From positions 186,001 through 250,000 of the forward strand of contig NZ_CP049057.1 of the NCBI RefSeq assembly GCF_011044175.1: a DNA stretch of 64,000 nt. Direction: 5' to 3'. The position numbers and the translations under genes were made by a program. This DNA is from Rasiella rasia. GTDB taxonomy: Bacteria; Bacteroidota; Bacteroidia; Flavobacteriales; Flavobacteriaceae. The notes beneath the pieces were generated by a model that ran no database searches, was not told where the DNA came from, and saw only the letters and a list, made by a program, of their open reading frames with translations. Shown piece after piece: positions 4,432 to 51,837 of this stretch. Numbering within the stretch: the stretch's first letter is position 1; every line of letters begins with the position of its first letter.

Positions 4432-6060
4432 TTAATAACGTACTTCATCTTTATCCATTGCCTTTTGTACTTCTTTTTCTGCATCTGCAGGGATATAATT
4501 TCCGCCAAGGTGATTGCACGCAAGTAGCGATGCTACCCCTTGAAATGATACAGGCACTTTGTTATACCCAAAGGAAGCTGATAAGGGTTGAACTAAATTT
4601 TTATCACCAAGGCTAAACTCTACATCTTCCATGGTAAATTGGCAAGGATGCTCATAACCGCATGCGTGTGTCATCTCTAAGAGCTCTTTTCTAAAATTTT
4701 TGAAATAGTAATGGGTACGCCTTGCTTTATCTTCAATATTAATACCACGTTGCCTCCATTTACTCTGGGTAGCAACACCACTTGGGCATGTATTGTTATG
4801 ACAAACTTGAGCTTGAATACATCCAACCGCCATCATCGCTTCTCTGGCTACGTTAATACAATCTACACCCATGGCAAATGCCATACTTGCGCGCGCTGGG
4901 AAACCTAATTTCCCGCTTCCTATGAATACAGTGCGTTCACATAAGTTATGGCGTTTAAAAATTTGATAAACATCAGAAAAACCAAAAACCCATGGTAACG
5001 CTACGTGATCTGCAAAACTTGGAGGTGCCGCTCCCGTACCCCCTTCACCACCATCTACGGTAATAAAATCGGGTCCCTTTTCTGTAGCTGCCATTTTTTT
5101 AGCGAGTTCTTCCCAATCTGATAATTTACCAATAGCGGCTTTAATCCCAACAGGAAGCCCAGTTGCATCTGCAATAGCTTCAACGAAATTAATAAGACCA
5201 TCTACACCTTCAAAAGCCGAATGAGTAGGAGGTGAGAGTACATCTTTTCCTATGGGAACATGTCTAATGCTTGCTATTTCCGCAGTAATTTTAGAACCAG
5301 GAAGTACGCCGCCTTTACCAGGCTTAGCTCCTTGACTTAATTTTACCTCTATAGCTCTCACCTGCGGGTTCTCACGAACTAATGCTACCATTTTGTCCAT
5401 AGAAAACTTTCCGTGGTCATCTCGAACGCCAAAGTAACCCGTGCCAAAATGAAAAACCACATCGCCCCCTTTTTTATGATAAGGTGACAATCCGCCTTCT
5501 CCAGTATTGTGATAGGCATGTGCTTGGTGGCAGCCACGATTTAAACTTTCAATAGCACGCGCAGAAAGAGAACCAAAACTCATAGCCGAAACATTGATTA
5601 CAGATGCTGGTCTATATGGCTTTTTTCTCCTACCAGCACCCATCACTTTGGCACAGGGTAGAAAGTAAGGATCTTTTCTATTGGGATGGTCTTGAGCTAC
5701 TTTAAACGGAAGCATGGCATTATTTATAAACACATAGTTAGGTTCGTAAAAATTACGATCACTACCAAATCCTTCGTAATTATTTTCATTTTTCGCAGAG
5801 GCATAAATCCAGCCTCTCTCAATGCGGTTAAACGGAAGTTCTTCTCTGTTGTTTGCCACAATGTATTGTCGTAGCTCTGGCCCAATGCTCTCTAAGAGGT
5901 ATCTAAAATGGCCTACAATAGGAAAATTTCTAAGAATGGTGTGTTTTTTCTGAAAGAGATCGTACAACGCCACAATGACTAACACTAGAAGTGTCCAGCC
6001 CCACCAAGGTATATTTCCTAAAAATTCTAATATATTTTCCATAGATATCTTAAAATCCAA
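4432..6060 (-). CDS. FMN-binding glutamate synthase family protein, membrane-anchored
   Basis: A 542-residue protein with a transmembrane helix (about 18-37) followed by the GltB central/FMN domain. Motifs include SAMSFGSLS, the glycine-rich FITVDGGEGGTGAAP and the three cysteines of the 3Fe-4S cluster at C414, C420 and C425 (C-x5-C-x4-C, as in GOGAT large subunits). It lacks the N-terminal glutamine amidotransferase domain and the C-terminal GXGXG domain, so it is not a complete glutamate synthase. This class is annotated as glutamate-synthase-like oxidoreductase and its substrate is uncertain. It precedes the DUF7935-like gene, with which it may form an operon. Confidence 0.9.
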   Translation of the reverse strand: MDFKISMENILEFLGNIPWWGWTLLVLVIVALYDLFQKKHTILRNFPIVGHFRYLLESIGPELRQYIVANNREELPFNRIERGWIYASAKNENNYEGFGSDRNFYEPNYVFINNAMLPFKVAQDHPNRKDPYFLPCAKVMGAGRRKKPYRPASVINVSAMSFGSLSARAIESLNRGCHQAHAYHNTGEGGLSPYHKKGGDVVFHFGTGYFGVRDDHGKFSMDKMVALVRENPQVRAIEVKLSQGAKPGKGGVLPGSKITAEIASIRHVPIGKDVLSPPTHSAFEGVDGLINFVEAIADATGLPVGIKAAIGKLSDWEELAKKMAATEKGPDFITVDGGEGGTGAAPPSFADHVALPWVFGFSDVYQIFKRHNLCERTVFIGSGKLGFPARASMAFAMGVDCINVAREAMMAVGCIQAQVCHNNTCPSGVATQSKWRQRGINIEDKARRTHYYFKNFRKELLEMTHACGYEHPCQFTMEDVEFSLGDKNLVQPLSASFGYNKVPVSFQGVASLLACNHLGGNYIPADAEKEVQKAMDKDEVRY

Positions 6061-22722: not shown

Positions 22723-23010
22723 ATGAAAGTTAGCTTTTTAAAACGTACCAAACCCAACAATCGTTTCAACTATACTCCGCGTTACTACAAGGGGAAAGAA
22801 GATGCCAACGAGTACAACTTCGCCAATAAGTTTGAGAAGTACTACGAAACATACAATAAAAACGATTTTGGTTCTCATTGGCGCGATGCTCGATACGCAA
22901 GCCGTAATAGAGGTAATGCTGGATTTAACAGAACCATTCTTGTCATTGTGTTAATTCTTGTATTTGTTTGTTTATGGATTTTAGACTTTGACCTTACAAT
23001 TTTTAGTTAG
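22723..23010 (+). CDS. Small basic protein with C-terminal membrane helix, unknown function
   Basis: A 95-residue protein. The N-terminal two thirds are polar and aromatic (RFNYTPRYYKGKEDANEYNF) and the C-terminus is a transmembrane helix (TILVIVLILVFVCLWIL). In flavobacterial genomes proteins like this are, as I recall, often labelled riboflavin synthase subunit beta because of the neighbouring ribH; nothing in the sequence supports that. It precedes mutL by 8 nt. Confidence 0.75.
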   Translation: MKVSFLKRTKPNNRFNYTPRYYKGKEDANEYNFANKFEKYYETYNKNDFGSHWRDARYASRNRGNAGFNRTILVIVLILVFVCLWILDFDLTIFS

Positions 23011-23018
23011 CACTCTGC

Positions 23019-24896
23019 ATGGCAGATATCATAGCCTTATTGCCCGATCATGTTGCCAATCAAATTGCTGCTGGAGAAGTGGTGCAACGCCCAGCTTCTG
23101 TAGTAAAAGAATTGCTAGAAAATGCCATTGATGCGAAAGCAACAAGTATTACCCTTATTGTAAAAGACGCAGGAAAAACACTTGTGCAAGTTACAGACAA
23201 CGGTATTGGTATGTCTACCACAGATGCCCGCCTTAGTTTTGAACGGCACGCTACCAGTAAGATAAAAATTGCAGACGATTTATTTAATCTCAGCACCAAA
23301 GGATTTCGTGGAGAAGCACTTGCCTCCATTGCAGCCATTGCGCATGTTACGTTAAAAACAAAGCGAGAAGAAGACGAAGTTGGTACCGAAATCGCTATAG
23401 AAGGAAGTCAGGTGACTTCTCAAGAACCTGCAGTAGCTCCAAATGGTACGACTATTTCAGTAAAAAACTTATTCTATAACATTCCTGCAAGGCGTAACTT
23501 TTTAAAAAGTAATGCCGTAGAAATGCGACATATCATCGATGAGTTTCACCGCGTTGCTCTCGCACACCCCTCAATAGCCTTAGTTCTAACGCATAACGAC
23601 AATGCGCTATTTAACTTGCCTGTGAGTAATAGCAGACAGCGTATTGTGAATATCTTCGGAAATAAGACGAACGAGAAACTGGTTCCTGTTGCAGAGGATA
23701 CCGAAATTGTAAAAGTTTCGGGCTTCGCACTAAAACCAGAATTTGGAAAAAAGAGTAGAGGAGAGCAGTTCTTTTTTGTAAACAATAGGTTTATAAAGAG
23801 TCCGTATTTACACCACGCTGTTTCAGCAGCATTTGAAGGACTTCTAAAGCAAGGAACGCATCCCGGGTATTTTTTATTTTTAGAAGTAGACCCAAAGTCT
23901 ATCGATATAAACATTCATCCTACTAAAACTGAAATTAAATTTGACGATGAACATAGTATTTATGCTATGTTACGGGCTACCATAAAACATGCACTTGGGC
24001 AATTTAACGTGGCTCCCGTACTCGATTTTAATAAAGATACCGGGTTTGAAACACCATATTCGTACGCTAAAAAGCATCCTTCTGCCCCTAAAATTGAAGT
24101 AGATAGTAGTTTTAATCCGTTTGTAGAAGATACAACTCCTAAACAACGTAACATCAGCTTTCCTTTTAAGCGGGAGAAAAAACAACCACAATGGGAATCG
24201 TTGTATGTTGGACTGAAAGATGACGATGTGCTTTCAAAACCTTCAGATATAGATACGAGTAGTGCTTTTGATAATGTAGAGTACGAGAGTGACGAAATTA
24301 CGGGTAGTCTTTTTACTACTTCCGAAGAACAAACAACACATACTACATTTCAACTTCAGAATAAATACATCATTAGCACCATAAAAAACGGGATGCTTGT
24401 AATTCATCAGCATTTGGCTCATTATAGAGTGTTGTACGAAGAATTACTAAAAAATATAACGGTAAACGAAGGAGTGAGCCAACAACTTTTATTTCCATTA
24501 CAGTTACACTTTTCGAAACCAGATTTGGTGATACTTGAAAGTCTTAAGGAAGCACTAGAGCACACCGGGTTTGTATTTGGTGAAACAGAAGAAGACACTA
24601 TACAGCTTACAGGCTTGCCTATATCACTTACAGAGAGTCTAGCTGGAAGTACATTAGAAAAGTTGGTTAGAGATATTAAAGAAGAAGTACCAGACGCCGG
24701 GTTTAGTCAGAACGATTTGCTTGCGAAGAGCATGGCGAAAAGCATGGCGATAAAATCTGGAACTACCTTAAGTAAAGAAGCACAAGAACATTTGGTACAC
24801 CGCCTGTTTGCATGCAAAGAACCAAGTGTTTCACCAGATAATACGGCCGTACTTGTTACTATAGACGCAAACGACCTCGATAAAAAGTTTCAATAG
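23019..24896 (+). CDS. mutL: DNA mismatch repair protein MutL
   Basis: A 625-residue MutL. The N-terminal GHKL ATPase is complete: AAGEVVQRPASVVKELLENA, DNGIGM, TKGFRGEALASI. The C-terminal dimerisation domain lacks the metal-dependent endonuclease signature: the place of DQHA(x)2E(x)4E reads HQHLAHY (463-469), and CPHGRP is replaced by SPDNTA (605-610). It should therefore not nick DNA by itself if these motifs are essential here. The next gene, a rhomboid protease, begins one base after the stop. Confidence 0.95.
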   Translation: MADIIALLPDHVANQIAAGEVVQRPASVVKELLENAIDAKATSITLIVKDAGKTLVQVTDNGIGMSTTDARLSFERHATSKIKIADDLFNLSTKGFRGEALASIAAIAHVTLKTKREEDEVGTEIAIEGSQVTSQEPAVAPNGTTISVKNLFYNIPARRNFLKSNAVEMRHIIDEFHRVALAHPSIALVLTHNDNALFNLPVSNSRQRIVNIFGNKTNEKLVPVAEDTEIVKVSGFALKPEFGKKSRGEQFFFVNNRFIKSPYLHHAVSAAFEGLLKQGTHPGYFLFLEVDPKSIDINIHPTKTEIKFDDEHSIYAMLRATIKHALGQFNVAPVLDFNKDTGFETPYSYAKKHPSAPKIEVDSSFNPFVEDTTPKQRNISFPFKREKKQPQWESLYVGLKDDDVLSKPSDIDTSSAFDNVEYESDEITGSLFTTSEEQTTHTTFQLQNKYIISTIKNGMLVIHQHLAHYRVLYEELLKNITVNEGVSQQLLFPLQLHFSKPDLVILESLKEALEHTGFVFGETEEDTIQLTGLPISLTESLAGSTLEKLVRDIKEEVPDAGFSQNDLLAKSMAKSMAIKSGTTLSKEAQEHLVHRLFACKEPSVSPDNTAVLVTIDANDLDKKFQ

Positions 24897-25676
24897 ATGA
24901 ATAGAATAAGCGATACCGTTAAACATATCATTATCATAAACGTGATTTTCTGGGTAGCCACACTACTTATTGGAAAGAATGGTGATGTAATGACTAATTT
25001 ATTTGCCATGCACTTTCCGTTAAGTGACGGATTTAAACCTTGGCAAATTATTACCCATATGTTTATGCATGCCAGCTATGAACAGGGGGGAGGCATTGCA
25101 TTTTATCATATACTCTTCAACATGTTTGGAGTGTGGATGTTTGGTACACCCCTTGAACAAATGTGGGGTAAAAAGAAGTTTATTTTCTTTTACATCTCAG
25201 CAGGATTAGGGTCGCTACTGCTATATACGGGAATCTTATATTTTCAATTTAATAGCGCCTTAGATACTTTAATAGCCGCTGGCTTTGACCGTGCCGAAAT
25301 ATTTGAAACATTAAATTCTGGAGCCTATATGTACGATACGCGCTGGGAAACTGTTCTTGGTGGGCAAGAAGGAACTATGGATATTTTACAGCCGTTCAAC
25401 TCGGTAATGCTTGGAGCTTCGGGTGCCCTCTACGGAATATTGGTAGCTTTTGCTATGACGTTTCCAAACACACCGCTTATGCTCATCTTTTTACCCATAC
25501 CTATTAAAGCGAAATATTTTGTACCTGGTGTTATAGCCATGGACCTGTTTTTTGGACTTACATCATACTCTATCGGGCCTATAGCGCACTTTGCGCATGT
25601 TGGAGGAGCTATTGCAGGTTTTATTATGGCGTATTATTGGAAAAAGAATAGCTTTAATAGTACCCGCTGGAATTAA
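24897..25676 (+). CDS. Rhomboid-family intramembrane serine protease (first of two)
   Basis: A 259-residue polytopic protein with about six membrane helices. The catalytic pair is visible as Ser175 in LGASGALYG and His234 in HFAHVGG. Rhomboids cut transmembrane helices of substrate proteins in the membrane. A loop of about 60 residues between helices 2 and 4 is longer than in short bacterial rhomboids. It begins directly after the mutL stop and is followed after 8 nt by a second rhomboid gene. Confidence 0.93.
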   Translation: MNRISDTVKHIIIINVIFWVATLLIGKNGDVMTNLFAMHFPLSDGFKPWQIITHMFMHASYEQGGGIAFYHILFNMFGVWMFGTPLEQMWGKKKFIFFYISAGLGSLLLYTGILYFQFNSALDTLIAAGFDRAEIFETLNSGAYMYDTRWETVLGGQEGTMDILQPFNSVMLGASGALYGILVAFAMTFPNTPLMLIFLPIPIKAKYFVPGVIAMDLFFGLTSYSIGPIAHFAHVGGAIAGFIMAYYWKKNSFNSTRWN

Positions 25677-25684
25677 ATGCAACC

Positions 25685-26557
25685 ATGAACACGAACAATC
25701 TGTCATATCAATTCAAAACCGCGAACGTAGTCATTAAGTTGATTGTGGTGAATCTTCTTATTTTTTTAGTAGTACGATTGACAGCTTTTTTTATGCAAAT
25801 AGCCCCAAAGAGCCTAGTAGCATGGTTTATGCTGCCAGATGCCATCTCAGAGGTTATAGTACAGCCTTGGGCATTTCTCACCTACAGCTTCTTGCATTTT
25901 GGTTTTTGGCATTTACTATTTAATATGCTGTGGTTGTATTACTTCGGAAATTATGTGCTTAATCTATTTACGGGTAAACGTTTGTTAACCATATATCTGC
26001 TAGGAGCAATTTTTGGCGGATTACTATACGTAGTAAGCTATAACCTATTTCCAGTGTTTGAAAACTCACGTAGTGACTTAATTGGAGCATCTGGTTCTGT
26101 AACTGCTATCATTGTCTTTATTGCTACGTATACACCCAATGCAGAAATGCGTTTGTTTAAATGGAATATTAAACTTTGGCACATTGCAGTTTTTCTAGTG
26201 CTAATGGATTTAATTAGGTTGCCTGTGGCTGGCAATGAAGGAGGTATGCTAGCACACTTAGGCGGCGCTCTCTTCGGATATGTTTATGCAAAACAGCTGG
26301 CAAAAGGTAACGATATTGGTAAATGGTTTGAAGCCACGATAGACTGGTTCACAAATCTTTTTAAAACCCGAAAACAAAAACCATTTAAAAAGGTACATCG
26401 CACAACAACTACCGCTTCAAGTCGTTCTAGTAGCAAGTCTCCTGTTACTGCCAACCAAAAAAAAATTGACGCTATTCTAGATAAAATTGGCAAGAGTGGG
26501 TACGATAGTTTGACCAAAGCGGAAAAAGATTTTTTGTTTAAGGCAGGAAAAGAGTAG
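25685..26557 (+). CDS. Rhomboid-family intramembrane serine protease (second of two)
   Basis: A 290-residue protein with about six membrane helices, catalytic Ser136 (GASGSVTAI) and His191 (LAHLGG). A cytosolic C-terminal tail of about 80 residues, basic and Ser/Thr-rich (TTTTASSRSSSKSP), ends in a small DUF6576-like module (IDAILDKIGKSGYDSLTKAE). The adjacent rhomboid lacks this tail, so the two probably have different substrates or regulation. The gene is in the mutL-rhomboid-rhomboid-EEP run. Confidence 0.92.
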   Translation: MNTNNLSYQFKTANVVIKLIVVNLLIFLVVRLTAFFMQIAPKSLVAWFMLPDAISEVIVQPWAFLTYSFLHFGFWHLLFNMLWLYYFGNYVLNLFTGKRLLTIYLLGAIFGGLLYVVSYNLFPVFENSRSDLIGASGSVTAIIVFIATYTPNAEMRLFKWNIKLWHIAVFLVLMDLIRLPVAGNEGGMLAHLGGALFGYVYAKQLAKGNDIGKWFEATIDWFTNLFKTRKQKPFKKVHRTTTTASSRSSSKSPVTANQKKIDAILDKIGKSGYDSLTKAEKDFLFKAGKE

Positions 26558-33852: not shown

Positions 33853-34737
33853 TTACGACTTATTTTTTTTCGACCGTATCATCATCTCCAGCATATCCCA
33901 CATTTCTTCGGGCACTTCTTCTAATAAATTCATTTGCCCAGCGCCTTTAAGCCATTCACCACCATCTATGGTAATAACTTCACCATTGAGGTATTGCGCA
34001 AAATCTGACACTAAATAGGCTGCGAGATTGGCGAGCTCTTGATGGTCGCCCACTCGTTTTAATGGGACTTTTTTGGCCAAATTGAATTTCTCTTTTAATT
34101 CGCCTGGTAGTAACCTGTCCCAAGCGCCTTTGGTCGGGAAGGGGCCTGGAGCTATTGCATTAAATCGTATGCCATATTTTGCCCATTCTACTGCGAGCGA
34201 TCTTGTCATCGCTAGTACACCAGCTTTGGCTGTAGCACTAGGCACTACATAAGCAGATCCTGTATAGGCGTATGTGGTGACGATATTAAGTACTGTTTTA
34301 TTCGTTTCTTTTTTGGCAATCCAATGTTTTCCTAAAGCTAAGGTGCAATTTTTTGTTCCTTTTAAAACAATATCAATAATCGTATCAAAGGCATTTGCCG
34401 AAAGACGCTCTGTAGGAGAAATAAAATTTCCTGCGGCATTGTTAAGTAGCACATCTACACTACCAAACGCGTCGTGTGCAGCTTTTATCATGGCCTCAAC
34501 CTCTTCGTAATGCCTTACATCGCACTGTACTGGTAGCACTGTTCCTCCTGTTTGTTCTTCCAGTTCTTTTTTTACCGTCTGTAATTTATCAATGTTTCTA
34601 GAAGTGATGACCACATTAGCACCTAATTCTAAAAAGTAGGTCGTCATAGACTTTCCTAAGCCACTTCCGCCCCCTGTAACAATAATTGTCTTTCCTTTTA
34701 ACGCGTCGTCACGCAACATTTTTGCTTTTAAGTCCAT
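33853..34737 (-). CDS. SDR-family oxidoreductase, 2,4-dienoyl-CoA reductase-like
   Basis: A 294-residue short-chain dehydrogenase. The cofactor motif is TGGGSGLGKS (about 21-30), followed by NNAAGNF. At the catalytic site the usual Tyr-x3-Lys is replaced by PSATAKAG, keeping the Lys and a nearby Ser but no Tyr, as in peroxisomal 2,4-dienoyl-CoA reductases. NADPH-dependent reduction of dienoyl-CoA from unsaturated fatty acids is therefore the favoured reaction. It is monocistronic. The C-terminal tail EEVPEEMWDMLEMMIRS is extra. Confidence 0.85.
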   Translation of the reverse strand: MDLKAKMLRDDALKGKTIIVTGGGSGLGKSMTTYFLELGANVVITSRNIDKLQTVKKELEEQTGGTVLPVQCDVRHYEEVEAMIKAAHDAFGSVDVLLNNAAGNFISPTERLSANAFDTIIDIVLKGTKNCTLALGKHWIAKKETNKTVLNIVTTYAYTGSAYVVPSATAKAGVLAMTRSLAVEWAKYGIRFNAIAPGPFPTKGAWDRLLPGELKEKFNLAKKVPLKRVGDHQELANLAAYLVSDFAQYLNGEVITIDGGEWLKGAGQMNLLEEVPEEMWDMLEMMIRSKKNKS

Positions 34738-49652: not shown

Positions 49653-49663
49653 TTATAACCCAT

Positions 49664-49788
49664 CGTCACTTCGAGTGATTTTAAAACGCGAGTAGGCGTT
49701 TTAGAATAGTTTAGAGAAATTCTAATACCTCTCGATACAACTTTTCCTTCAACCTTTAGGGTCGAAGAAAAACTCACTCGAGGTGACG
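49664..49788. repeat. Two-hairpin repeat unit R1 (isolated full copy)
   Basis: Starts CGTCACTTCGAGTG and ends CACTCGAGGTGACG, so the two ends are inverted copies with one mismatch. Inside are a left hairpin (AAAACGC/GCGTTTT, loop GAGTAG) and a right hairpin (CTTCAACC/GGTCGAAG). R1 lies between the M16 terminator and the DUF6090 gene and is 1.1 kb from the next copy. Confidence 0.9.
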
Positions 49789-49934
49789 TTGTTTATTTTT
49801 TTCACCGAGTTTGTATAACGCTAGTGGCGTGGTGTTTTCTTTATTTTAGGGAATGAATTTACGCATTTTGTAGGAAACTAATTAAGTTTATTTAACTCGT
49901 AACGCCATTAGTGTTATACGTTGTTGTGCTTTCG
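49789..49934. other. Intergenic region with an imperfect inverted repeat
   Basis: There is no gene. The sequence after R1 (GTTGTTTAT then a T-rich tract and TTCACC) also follows the other repeat copies. The rest is occupied by the 18-nt inverted repeat at 49813-49919, which ends 15 nt before the stop of the DUF6090 gene. Confidence 0.6.
49813..49919. repeat. 18-nt imperfect inverted repeat, attC-like in outline
   Basis: GTATAACGCTAGTGGCGT (49813-49830) and ACGCCATTAGTGTTATAC (49902-49919) are reverse complements at 16 of 18 positions; both differences are C-to-T changes that keep G-U pairing. The arms are 71 nt apart. A GTATAAC box, 5-nt spacer and TGGCGT, mirrored by ACGCCA, 5-nt spacer and GTTATAC, recalls the layout of integron attC sites, but the spacers also pair and no integrase is present. 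Confidence 0.55.
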
Positions 49935-50711
49935 TTATTTATTCAATTTATCAAGTTCTTCTTTAATTCCGTAAATCACACTATCTATTGCCTTAATAGT
50001 TTCTGTTTCTTCATCAATTATTTTACCTCTATTGTAGAGTGATAACTGCAAATTCTTCATAAGGTCATTGTCATTTAAAAATTTATCGTAATTATCTATT
50101 CTTAATTTGTAAATAGATATAGAGTCAGAATGCATAAACCCATATTTTGTTGGTTGATTATAATCCGCAGACAAATATTTGAATAGAAATGGTTGAATTA
50201 GCTTTGTCATATTAAATTCAGCTTGTTTCATTCCAAGTTCATCCTCTAATCGCTTTAAATTTAATTGAAATAAATTGGTTATAGCAATACGAAGACTGTC
50301 ATTAGATAAGGTGTTCAATCCAATGTTTTTTAAATTTTCAAAAGCACTTGTTTTAGGAATAATTTGAAATTCAGCACTGGAAGTTGTAAAAGACTCATAA
50401 ATTGTTTGAGAATTTGATTTCTTATCATAGATATCATTTAAAAGCTGTTGACTTGTTTTGAATATTTCTTTATGCTTTGAAATTGTTGTTTTTATATCAT
50501 TTCTAGTTTGTAGTAAATCACTTTTTAGTTCTGTGTAAATCTGTGCTTCTAGTTTTTGTACTTTTCGATTTTCATTCCAATTATTAATCTGAAGGGCAAT
50601 AAGAATCCCAATAACCACAAGTACAATTTCTCCAATAGCATACTTAAAATACTTTCCAGTTTTATTGTTTCCTATAAGATCGTAGCGAATTTTTTGAAAG
50701 AATTTTATCAT
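49935..50711 (-). CDS. DUF6090 family membrane protein
   Basis: A 258-residue protein with one transmembrane helix near the N-terminus (AIGEIVLVVIGILIALQINN, about 26-45) preceded by the family signature NNKTGKYFKYA. A long helical extracytoplasmic part follows (LEAQIYTELKSDLLQTRNDI and others). DUF6090 proteins are abundant and often multi-copy in flavobacteria, with no known function. It lies between repeat copy R1 and the split repeat R2, and has a low-GC, lysine-rich composition, so it may be an acquired accessory gene. Confidence 0.85.
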   Translation of the reverse strand: MIKFFQKIRYDLIGNNKTGKYFKYAIGEIVLVVIGILIALQINNWNENRKVQKLEAQIYTELKSDLLQTRNDIKTTISKHKEIFKTSQQLLNDIYDKKSNSQTIYESFTTSSAEFQIIPKTSAFENLKNIGLNTLSNDSLRIAITNLFQLNLKRLEDELGMKQAEFNMTKLIQPFLFKYLSADYNQPTKYGFMHSDSISIYKLRIDNYDKFLNDNDLMKNLQLSLYNRGKIIDEETETIKAIDSVIYGIKEELDKLNK

Positions 50712-50798
50712 TAGAGGTTAGTTTCTCTAAAGATATGATTTTAATTGGATTAGGAAGTTCAAATAATGAAGCACAACATATTTTAAGCTTAACCCATC

Positions 50799-50855
50799 GT
50801 CACTTCTAGTGATTTTAAAACGCGAGTAGGCGTTTTAGAATAGTATCGAGAAGCC
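50799..50855. repeat. Repeat R2, left hairpin half
   Basis: A single hairpin: AAAACGC/GCGTTTT inner stem, loop GAGTAG, and an outer stem between CTTCTAGTGATTTT and AGAATAGTATCGAGAAG with bulges. It ends TATCGAGAAGCC like R6, not with the junction seen in the full units. It is preceded by the same ATATTTTAAGCTTAACC spacer as R4-R6. Confidence 0.85.
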
Positions 50856-50857
50856 AC

Positions 50858-51151
50858 CTATTTCGAGAATTTCTTTTTTGATAAATTAGGTAGAGCTTCA
50901 AAGTTTCCTTTAATTAACGCTTCTTTCTTGGCTCTTGACCATTTTTTAATTTTCTTTTCCCAATCAATTGCCATTTGTATATCTGTAAATTCAGCATAAA
51001 AGGATAGTTCAACAGGTCTTTTTGTATACGTATAACAGTCTTTAAAAAAACCAGAAATATGCTGTTCTAGTCGTTTGATAAGGTTTGAAGTTACTCCAGT
51101 ATAATAAGAATTGTCAGCACAGGTTAATATGTAGACGAATGACTTTTGCAT
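50858..51151 (-). CDS. Small GIY-YIG nuclease (UPF0213/YhbQ-like)
   Basis: A 97-residue protein that is one GIY-YIG domain: VYILTC, YYTGVTSNLIKRLEQH (YIG variant, catalytic Arg27) and the metal-binding Glu65 in DWEKKIKKWSRAKKEALI. This is the size of YhbQ-type nucleases, which are reported to act on damaged or branched DNA. The basic C-terminus (LSKKKFSK) fits nucleic acid binding. Flavobacterial genomes often carry several copies. Here it lies exactly between the two halves of a palindromic repeat, which suggests that nuclease and repeat belong together. Confidence 0.92.
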   Translation of the reverse strand: MQKSFVYILTCADNSYYTGVTSNLIKRLEQHISGFFKDCYTYTKRPVELSFYAEFTDIQMAIDWEKKIKKWSRAKKEALIKGNFEALPNLSKKKFSK

Positions 51152-51191
51152 TGTATTAAGATAGTGAATATTAGTATACTAGTCGTCAAAA

Positions 51192-51254
51192 TACCTCTCG
51201 ATACAACTTTTCCTTCAACCTTTAGGGTCGAAGAAAAACTCACTCGAGGTGACG
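51192..51254. repeat. Repeat R2, right hairpin half
   Basis: From ACCTCTCGATAC to CACTCGAGGTGACG, with the central hairpin CTTCAACC/GGTCGAAG. It begins 40 nt before the GIY-YIG start codon and is identical or nearly so to the right halves of R1, R3 and R4. Confidence 0.85.
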
Positions 51255-51291
51255 TTGTTTATGATTCCACCATATTTTAAACCTAACCTAT

Positions 51292-51415
51292 CGTCACTTC
51301 TAGTGATTTTAAAACGCGAGTAGGCGTTTTAGAATAGTTTAGAGAAATTCTAATACCTCTCGATACAACTTTTCCTTCAACCTTTAGGGTCGAAGAAAAA
51401 CTCACTCGAGGTGAC
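51292..51415. repeat. Two-hairpin repeat unit R3 (full copy)
   Basis: Same organisation as R1. It is the first full copy of a tandem series with starts at 51292, 51455, 51618 and 51780. The left end reads CGTCACTTCTAGTG, a variant shared with R2 and R4. Confidence 0.9.
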
Positions 51416-51454
51416 GTTGTTTATTTTTTTCACCATATTTTAAGCTTAACCCAT

Positions 51455-51579
51455 CGTCACTTCTAGTGATTTTAAAACGCGAGTAGGCGTTTTAGAATAG
51501 TTTAGAGAAATTCTAATACCTCTCGATACAACTTTTCCTTCAACCTTTAGGGTCGAAGAAAAACTCACTCGAGGTGACG
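51455..51579. repeat. Two-hairpin repeat unit R4 (full copy)
   Basis: Nearly identical to R3, starting 163 nt after it. The intervening spacer (TTTCACCATATTTTAAGCTT then AACCCAT) is also conserved, so the repeating unit includes it. Confidence 0.9.
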
Positions 51580-51617
51580 TTGTATATTTATTTCACCATA
51601 TTTTAAGCTTAACCTAT

Positions 51618-51742
51618 CGTCGCTTCGAGTGATTTTAAAACACCAGTAGGCTTTTTAGAATAGTTTAGAGAAGTTCTAATACCTCTCGATACAATTTTTC
51701 CTTCGACCTTTAGGGTCGAAGAAAAACCCACTCGAGGTGACG
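51618..51742. repeat. Two-hairpin repeat unit R5 (full, diverged copy)
   Basis: It carries several substitutions relative to R3 and R4. In the right hairpin the stem is now perfect (CTTCGACC/GGTCGAAG), while the left inner stem is partly broken (AAAACACC against GGCTTTTT). Base pairing is thus kept in one arm despite sequence change. Confidence 0.9.
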
Positions 51743-51779
51743 TTGTTTATAATTTCACCATATTTTAAGCTTAACCCAT

Positions 51780-51837
51780 CGTCACTTCGAGTGATTTTAA
51801 AACGCGATTAAGCGTTTTAGAATAGTATCGAGAAGCC
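51780..51837. repeat. Repeat R6, left hairpin half at the end of the array
   Basis: Only the left half is present, ending TATCGAGAAGCC as in R2. The loop has changed to GATTAA while the AAAACGC/GCGTTTT stem is kept. It closes the array 52 nt before the DUF2891 start. Confidence 0.9.

Follow-up and report, generated by a model that had tools for sequence, protein, structure and literature searches.

A GIY-YIG nuclease gene set among CGTC-tagged hairpins in Rasiella rasia: a candidate enzyme for a REP-like repeat system

A small nuclease gene which lies between two hairpins, with gene-less copies of the same hairpins close by, raises the question of whether the nuclease is the enzyme of these repeats or merely shares a site with them. 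The locus belongs to the window, by which we mean the whole stretch of 64,000 nucleotides that was analysed. A preliminary description, made from the sequence alone, placed a GIY-YIG gene between the two halves of a palindromic repeat at 50799-51254, with the left half 2 nt from the stop of the gene and the right half 40 nt beyond its start codon. Both claims held, and the 456-nt arrangement, an intact gene for a 97-aa GIY-YIG protein flanked by two hairpin halves, is confirmed at about 50798-51254. The features of the region are the following:

49664-49788, + strand: R1, gene-less dimer of both halves
49935-50711, - strand: DUF6090 gene between R1 and the nuclease element (PF19578, E 1.1e-12)
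50798-50855, + strand: hairpin half 3' of the nuclease gene, GTCA-tagged, stem arms CTTC/GAAG, TA in place of GA in one arm
50858-51151, - strand: GIY-YIG nuclease gene, 97 aa (Pfam PF01541, E 3.6e-18)
51194-51254, - strand: hairpin half 5' of the nuclease gene, GTCA-tagged, stem arms CCTC/GAGG, with a tandem GA mismatch and a bulged T
51292-51416, + strand: R3, gene-less dimer, part of a 163-nt tandem array
51455-51579, + strand: R4, gene-less dimer
51618-51742, + strand: R5, gene-less dimer
51780-51837, + strand: R6, lone left-type half, unpaired, both arms intact, closing the array

The left half can be delimited as a strict hairpin (50799-50853) or as the span from CGTC to GCC (50798-50855), which stops 2 nt off the nuclease stop codon; the hairpin of the right half (51194-51253) begins about 40 nt upstream of the ATG. 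The DUF6090 gene inside the repeat cluster is probably a bystander.

The gene-less copies R1, R3, R4 and R5, which had already been described, are real, at 91-96% identity, and the unpaired half R6 is to be added to them. The outer-end sequences first given had to be corrected: the copy adjoining the gene reads CGTCACTTCTAGTG, with one change, and CGTCACTTCGAGTG is the reading in R1 and, at 51781-51835, in R6. The proposal that the gene-less copies are derivatives of the element also needs correction. The inner arm of their left hairpin is eroded, with TTTAGAGAAATTC in place of TATCGAGAAGCC, and since all of them have this erosion and the same spacer, they have the appearance of tandem copies of a single amplified dimer, not of fresh deletions of the element. 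The 163-nt repeat has seven matches in its own 3.39-Mb single-contig genome, all at window positions 49656-51834, and the matches to the tag pattern are confined to the same region. A second GIY-YIG gene of this genome (G000:C1:1812040-1812303, locus L009) is broken by two stops and has a different CGTCA hairpin, CGTCATGCTGAACTTGTTTCAGCATCTCA, alongside.

The window protein has the defining domain of the GIY-YIG superfamily (PF01541), including its conserved Y, Y, R, H and E. Residues Y17, R27, H31, E65, K69 and K76 are invariant in all 115 aligned proteins and Y7 is found in 113 of the 115. The protein is a GIY-YIG family nuclease with its catalytic residues conserved; the nuclease activity itself is inferred. 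Small GIY-YIG proteins of the UPF0213 or YazA type (PDB 1zg2 and 1ywl) are its sequence relatives (1zg2, E 1.4e-11), but yazA of Bacillus subtilis is without such hairpins, unlike the window gene.

The association between hairpin and nuclease is not local to the window. A similarity scan gave 80 relatives of the protein in named Bacteroidota genomes and more were added by genome searches. The flanks were scanned for a generic hairpin consisting of GTCN, a 4-nt stem, GAG, up to 80 nt, CGA and the complementary 4 nt (GTCN-NNNN-GA-G...C-GA-N'N'N'N'), which occurs 619 times across 123 GIY-YIG loci as against 0.4 times in shuffled sequence. A hairpin lies within 300 nt of the gene in 114 of the 123 loci and in almost none of the shuffles; hairpin density peaks within 200-400 nt of the gene and is near background past about 1 kb. 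The check proposed for the mobile-element interpretation, whether the halves flank the GIY-YIG genes of this group, is by this count answered in its support, and the rate around GIY-YIG genes is far above that around other genes in the same loci. Long proteins with a GIY-YIG domain, such as UvrC, have no such hairpin in any of 11 loci from repeat-holding genomes. The claim that the gene lies exactly between the two halves describes the commonest layout but does not hold throughout: of the 85 loci where a hairpin was detected on both sides, 50 have the order A-gene-B in the nearest pair and 35 have other orders. When neither tag nor mismatch was fixed in the tally, GTCA was still the most frequent prefix, and of the inner motifs TC/TC with G:C came first and GA/GA with a G:C pair second. 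The 123 loci were collected through their similarity to the window protein, one record among them is double (L013 = L093) and they are phylogenetically related, so tests which treat genomes as independent are optimistic.

The layout is also present in alpha-, beta- and gamma-Proteobacteria. In Rhizobium, Sinorhizobium, Shinella, Azospirillum and Sphingobium, whose loci were taken from plasmid-collection records, the GIY-YIG gene has an A hairpin on its upstream side, at 52-124 nt, and a B hairpin on its downstream side, at 10-111 nt, and in Aeromonas, Neisseria and Photobacterium one or more hairpins adjoin it. The flanks of yazA of B. subtilis and of GIY-YIG genes of Legionella and R. tumorigenes were scanned and have no such hairpin. 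By eye only we find hairpins of the form GTCATTCTGAGTGAAACGAAGAATCTC in the cyanobacterium Planktothrix, unscored in the stricter scan, and GA-type hairpins in Sphingomonas and Methylobacterium.

Selection on the folded form is supported by the way the arms vary together. A 2-nt stretch of the stem is Watson-Crick paired in 225 of 243 cases where 97 would be expected, and at the inner Y:R pair T:A (316 of 538) alternates with C:G (201) next to a constant T. Folded as single-stranded DNA, one window half per side and one half from a relative do better than their shuffles. The hairpin class follows the class of the nuclease: on the protein tree two hairpin classes separate cleanly, with 2 label changes among 112 labelled tips compared to 26-38 when the labels are shuffled. 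In 100 genomes of the family, for which repeat and gene counts were transcribed by hand, the numbers of T-class versus C-class repeats track the nuclease class present (T/C balance p=0.002), and two or more repeats are found in 14 of 16 genomes with a close nuclease relative versus 22 of 84 others (p=6e-6), kinship being ignored in both tests. Five sampled genomes hold 7-21 T-class repeats yet are without a close nuclease relative. We regard the association and the class matching between enzyme and hairpin as shown, and both as strong.

Support for a mobile element is comparative only and comes from occupied and empty sites. In Azospirillum lipoferum 4B the gene and its hairpins lie between sufB and sufC, and in A. 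ramasamyi, A. oryzae and B510 this site is empty of both, with flanks 95-97% identical. The fnrL site of Sphingobium is found in three states: TYG46, MM7A and MM15 have the gene together with two hairpins, TYG64 and TYG74 have a single hairpin without the gene, and TYG72 has neither. The window's own site differs across five species: the window has its array, G004 has two gene-less dimers, G001 one other hairpin, G003 none, and G002 (L155, L103; G002:C5, about 22900-26100) a GIY-YIG gene of another subfamily, set in an array of hairpins of a different class. Gene-bearing and gene-less states of one site are in this way shown for related strains and species, and gain cannot be separated from loss by these data. 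In G003 the intergenic site is filled by short tandem repeats of the CAGTTAT and CGACTAA types (L158, positions 946-1505).

The closest published repeats are the CGTC-tagged REPs (Di Nocera, De Gregorio and Rocco, 2013; PMC3733652), among them dRS3 of Neisseria and RPE-4 and RPE-6 of Rickettsia, which according to that survey "apparently lack a dedicated transposase"; no GIY-YIG gene is named there. They share with the present repeats the CGTC/TGTC tag, a short hairpin, head-to-head dimers and clusters, and also a range which includes Bacteroidetes, Azospirillum lipoferum and Sinorhizobium meliloti. The tag requirement, an unpaired CGTC (or TGTC/CCTC) at one hairpin end, is met, the window copies having CGTC and the base before GTC being mostly T (431) or C (163); a palindromic stem with compensatory changes is likewise present. 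The published stems are short and perfect, whereas in many of the present Bacteroidota copies there is a tandem GA mismatch together with a bulged T and long inner hairpins. A stem of 8-9 bp almost always opening with A-T pairs, a loop of 4-5 and a CCA tail are not found in the window copies; many Proteobacterial copies fit this description, and in the window copies and the majority of those from Bacteroidota the stem is of 4 bp with the GA mismatch, the inner hairpin often being long. We therefore term the Bacteroidota repeats CGTC-like and do not file them in the four published families.

The comparison with REPs and their RAYT transposases is apt as an analogy. REP/REPIN systems with RAYT (TnpA-REP, a Y1 HUH transposase) share tagged hairpins, inverted dimers, dispersed gene-less copies and one small enzyme with its own repeats on either side, but they have a GTAG tag and a Y1 HUH enzyme where the present system has a GTC(A) tag and an unrelated, hydrolytic GIY-YIG protein. 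A RAYT as driver of the repeats is rejected for the genus, as the Y1 HUH transposase (PF01797) is absent from 5 of 5 genomes searched, and in the 100 genomes RAYT presence is uncorrelated with the repeats (odds ratio 0.99, p=1). Other identities were also rejected: there is no Rfam match up to E 0.1, nothing suggests a defence system beyond a weak partial PADLOC match (E 0.0064), and a transposon with target-site duplication is not supported, there being no clear excess of direct repeats at the ends of 128 gene-less dimers. The preliminary statement that no described pairing of YhbQ-size GIY-YIG proteins with such repeats was known agrees with our search, in which the open-licence PMC literature (preprints excluded) gave no link of GIY-YIG to REP, REPIN, CGTC or dRS3, and "GIY" is absent from the two most relevant papers citing PMC3733652; this is no proof of novelty.

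The model which we favour, with moderate confidence, is a REP/REPIN-like repeat system with a stand-alone GIY-YIG nuclease as its enzyme. That the gene lies within or next to CGTCA-tagged hairpins, that the hairpins are structurally constrained and that their class follows the nuclease is shown; an action of the enzyme on the hairpins, and their spread by it, is inferred as the most economical reading, as there is no biochemistry and no observed movement. In this model a repeat folded in single-stranded or cruciform DNA would present its GTCA tag and mismatched stem to the nuclease, which would recognise both and would nick or break the DNA there. GIY-YIG enzymes hydrolyse DNA without a covalent intermediate, and for this reason the copying is predicted to be completed by host repair or replication, with another repeat copy as template. 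The outcome would be the spread of gene-less dimers, of the gene between them and of tandem arrays.

Three other explanations were considered. The nuclease could be a passenger, an independent small selfish gene which lands or survives in repeat-rich intergenic sites while something else spreads the repeats. Repeats do exist in genomes without a close nuclease relative, and the DUF6090 gene likewise lies within the repeat cluster. We find this explanation unlikely nevertheless, as hairpin class tracks nuclease class, the layout recurs in distant phyla, the repeats are not explained by RAYT, and the loci of UvrC and other long GIY-YIG proteins lack the hairpin. Also unlikely is that the gene is a free-standing homing endonuclease which targets hairpins spread by another mechanism. 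GIY-YIG is a known homing endonuclease fold, and the single gene-less hairpin of Sphingobium TYG64 and TYG74, where relatives have the gene between two, could be read in this way; repeat number across genomes, however, tracks the nuclease, and no Y1 transposase was found in the genus. Spread of a nuclease gene through the repair of breaks would be common to the present system and the GIY-YIG homing endonucleases of group I introns, but the window gene lies between intergenic repeat hairpins and no intron is seen.

Hardest to defend is regulation or domestication, in which the nuclease is controlled by the hairpins, acting as RNA terminators or as control elements, or is itself a repair enzyme of the host with the repeats as landmarks. 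Hairpins are near both gene ends, and REPs have been proposed to act as RNA (PMC3733652). Against this, most copies in several genomes are far from the gene, tag and layout are symmetrical around it, and presence at orthologous sites is patchy.

A bolder version of the favoured nuclease-hairpin model, for and against which we see equally good grounds, makes stand-alone GIY-YIG nucleases the dedicated mobilising enzymes of a CGTC-REP superfamily in several phyla, a second REP-enzyme system independent of RAYTs in which nuclease and hairpin co-diversify. CGTC REPs form a large class of widespread intergenic repeats, long known, whose origin the 2013 survey left open. As the enzyme that is missing for their spread the GIY-YIG nuclease is a good candidate, the association being shown and the action inferred. 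If they have a cognate nuclease, their origin becomes directly testable, a common uncharacterised gene family gains a function, and a non-RAYT enzyme is added to REP biology.

Three minor observations concern repeats. At G016:C15:33525-36839 two equal-scoring GIY-YIG copies lie 1,036 nt apart in a repeat array with a period of about 180 nt, and at L034 a dense array of GGTTACGGGTAACAGGTGACGG-like units lies about 220 nt upstream of the GIY-YIG gene. Elsewhere in the window, positions 5030-5066 and 33941-33977 are two 37-nt copies, 81% alike.
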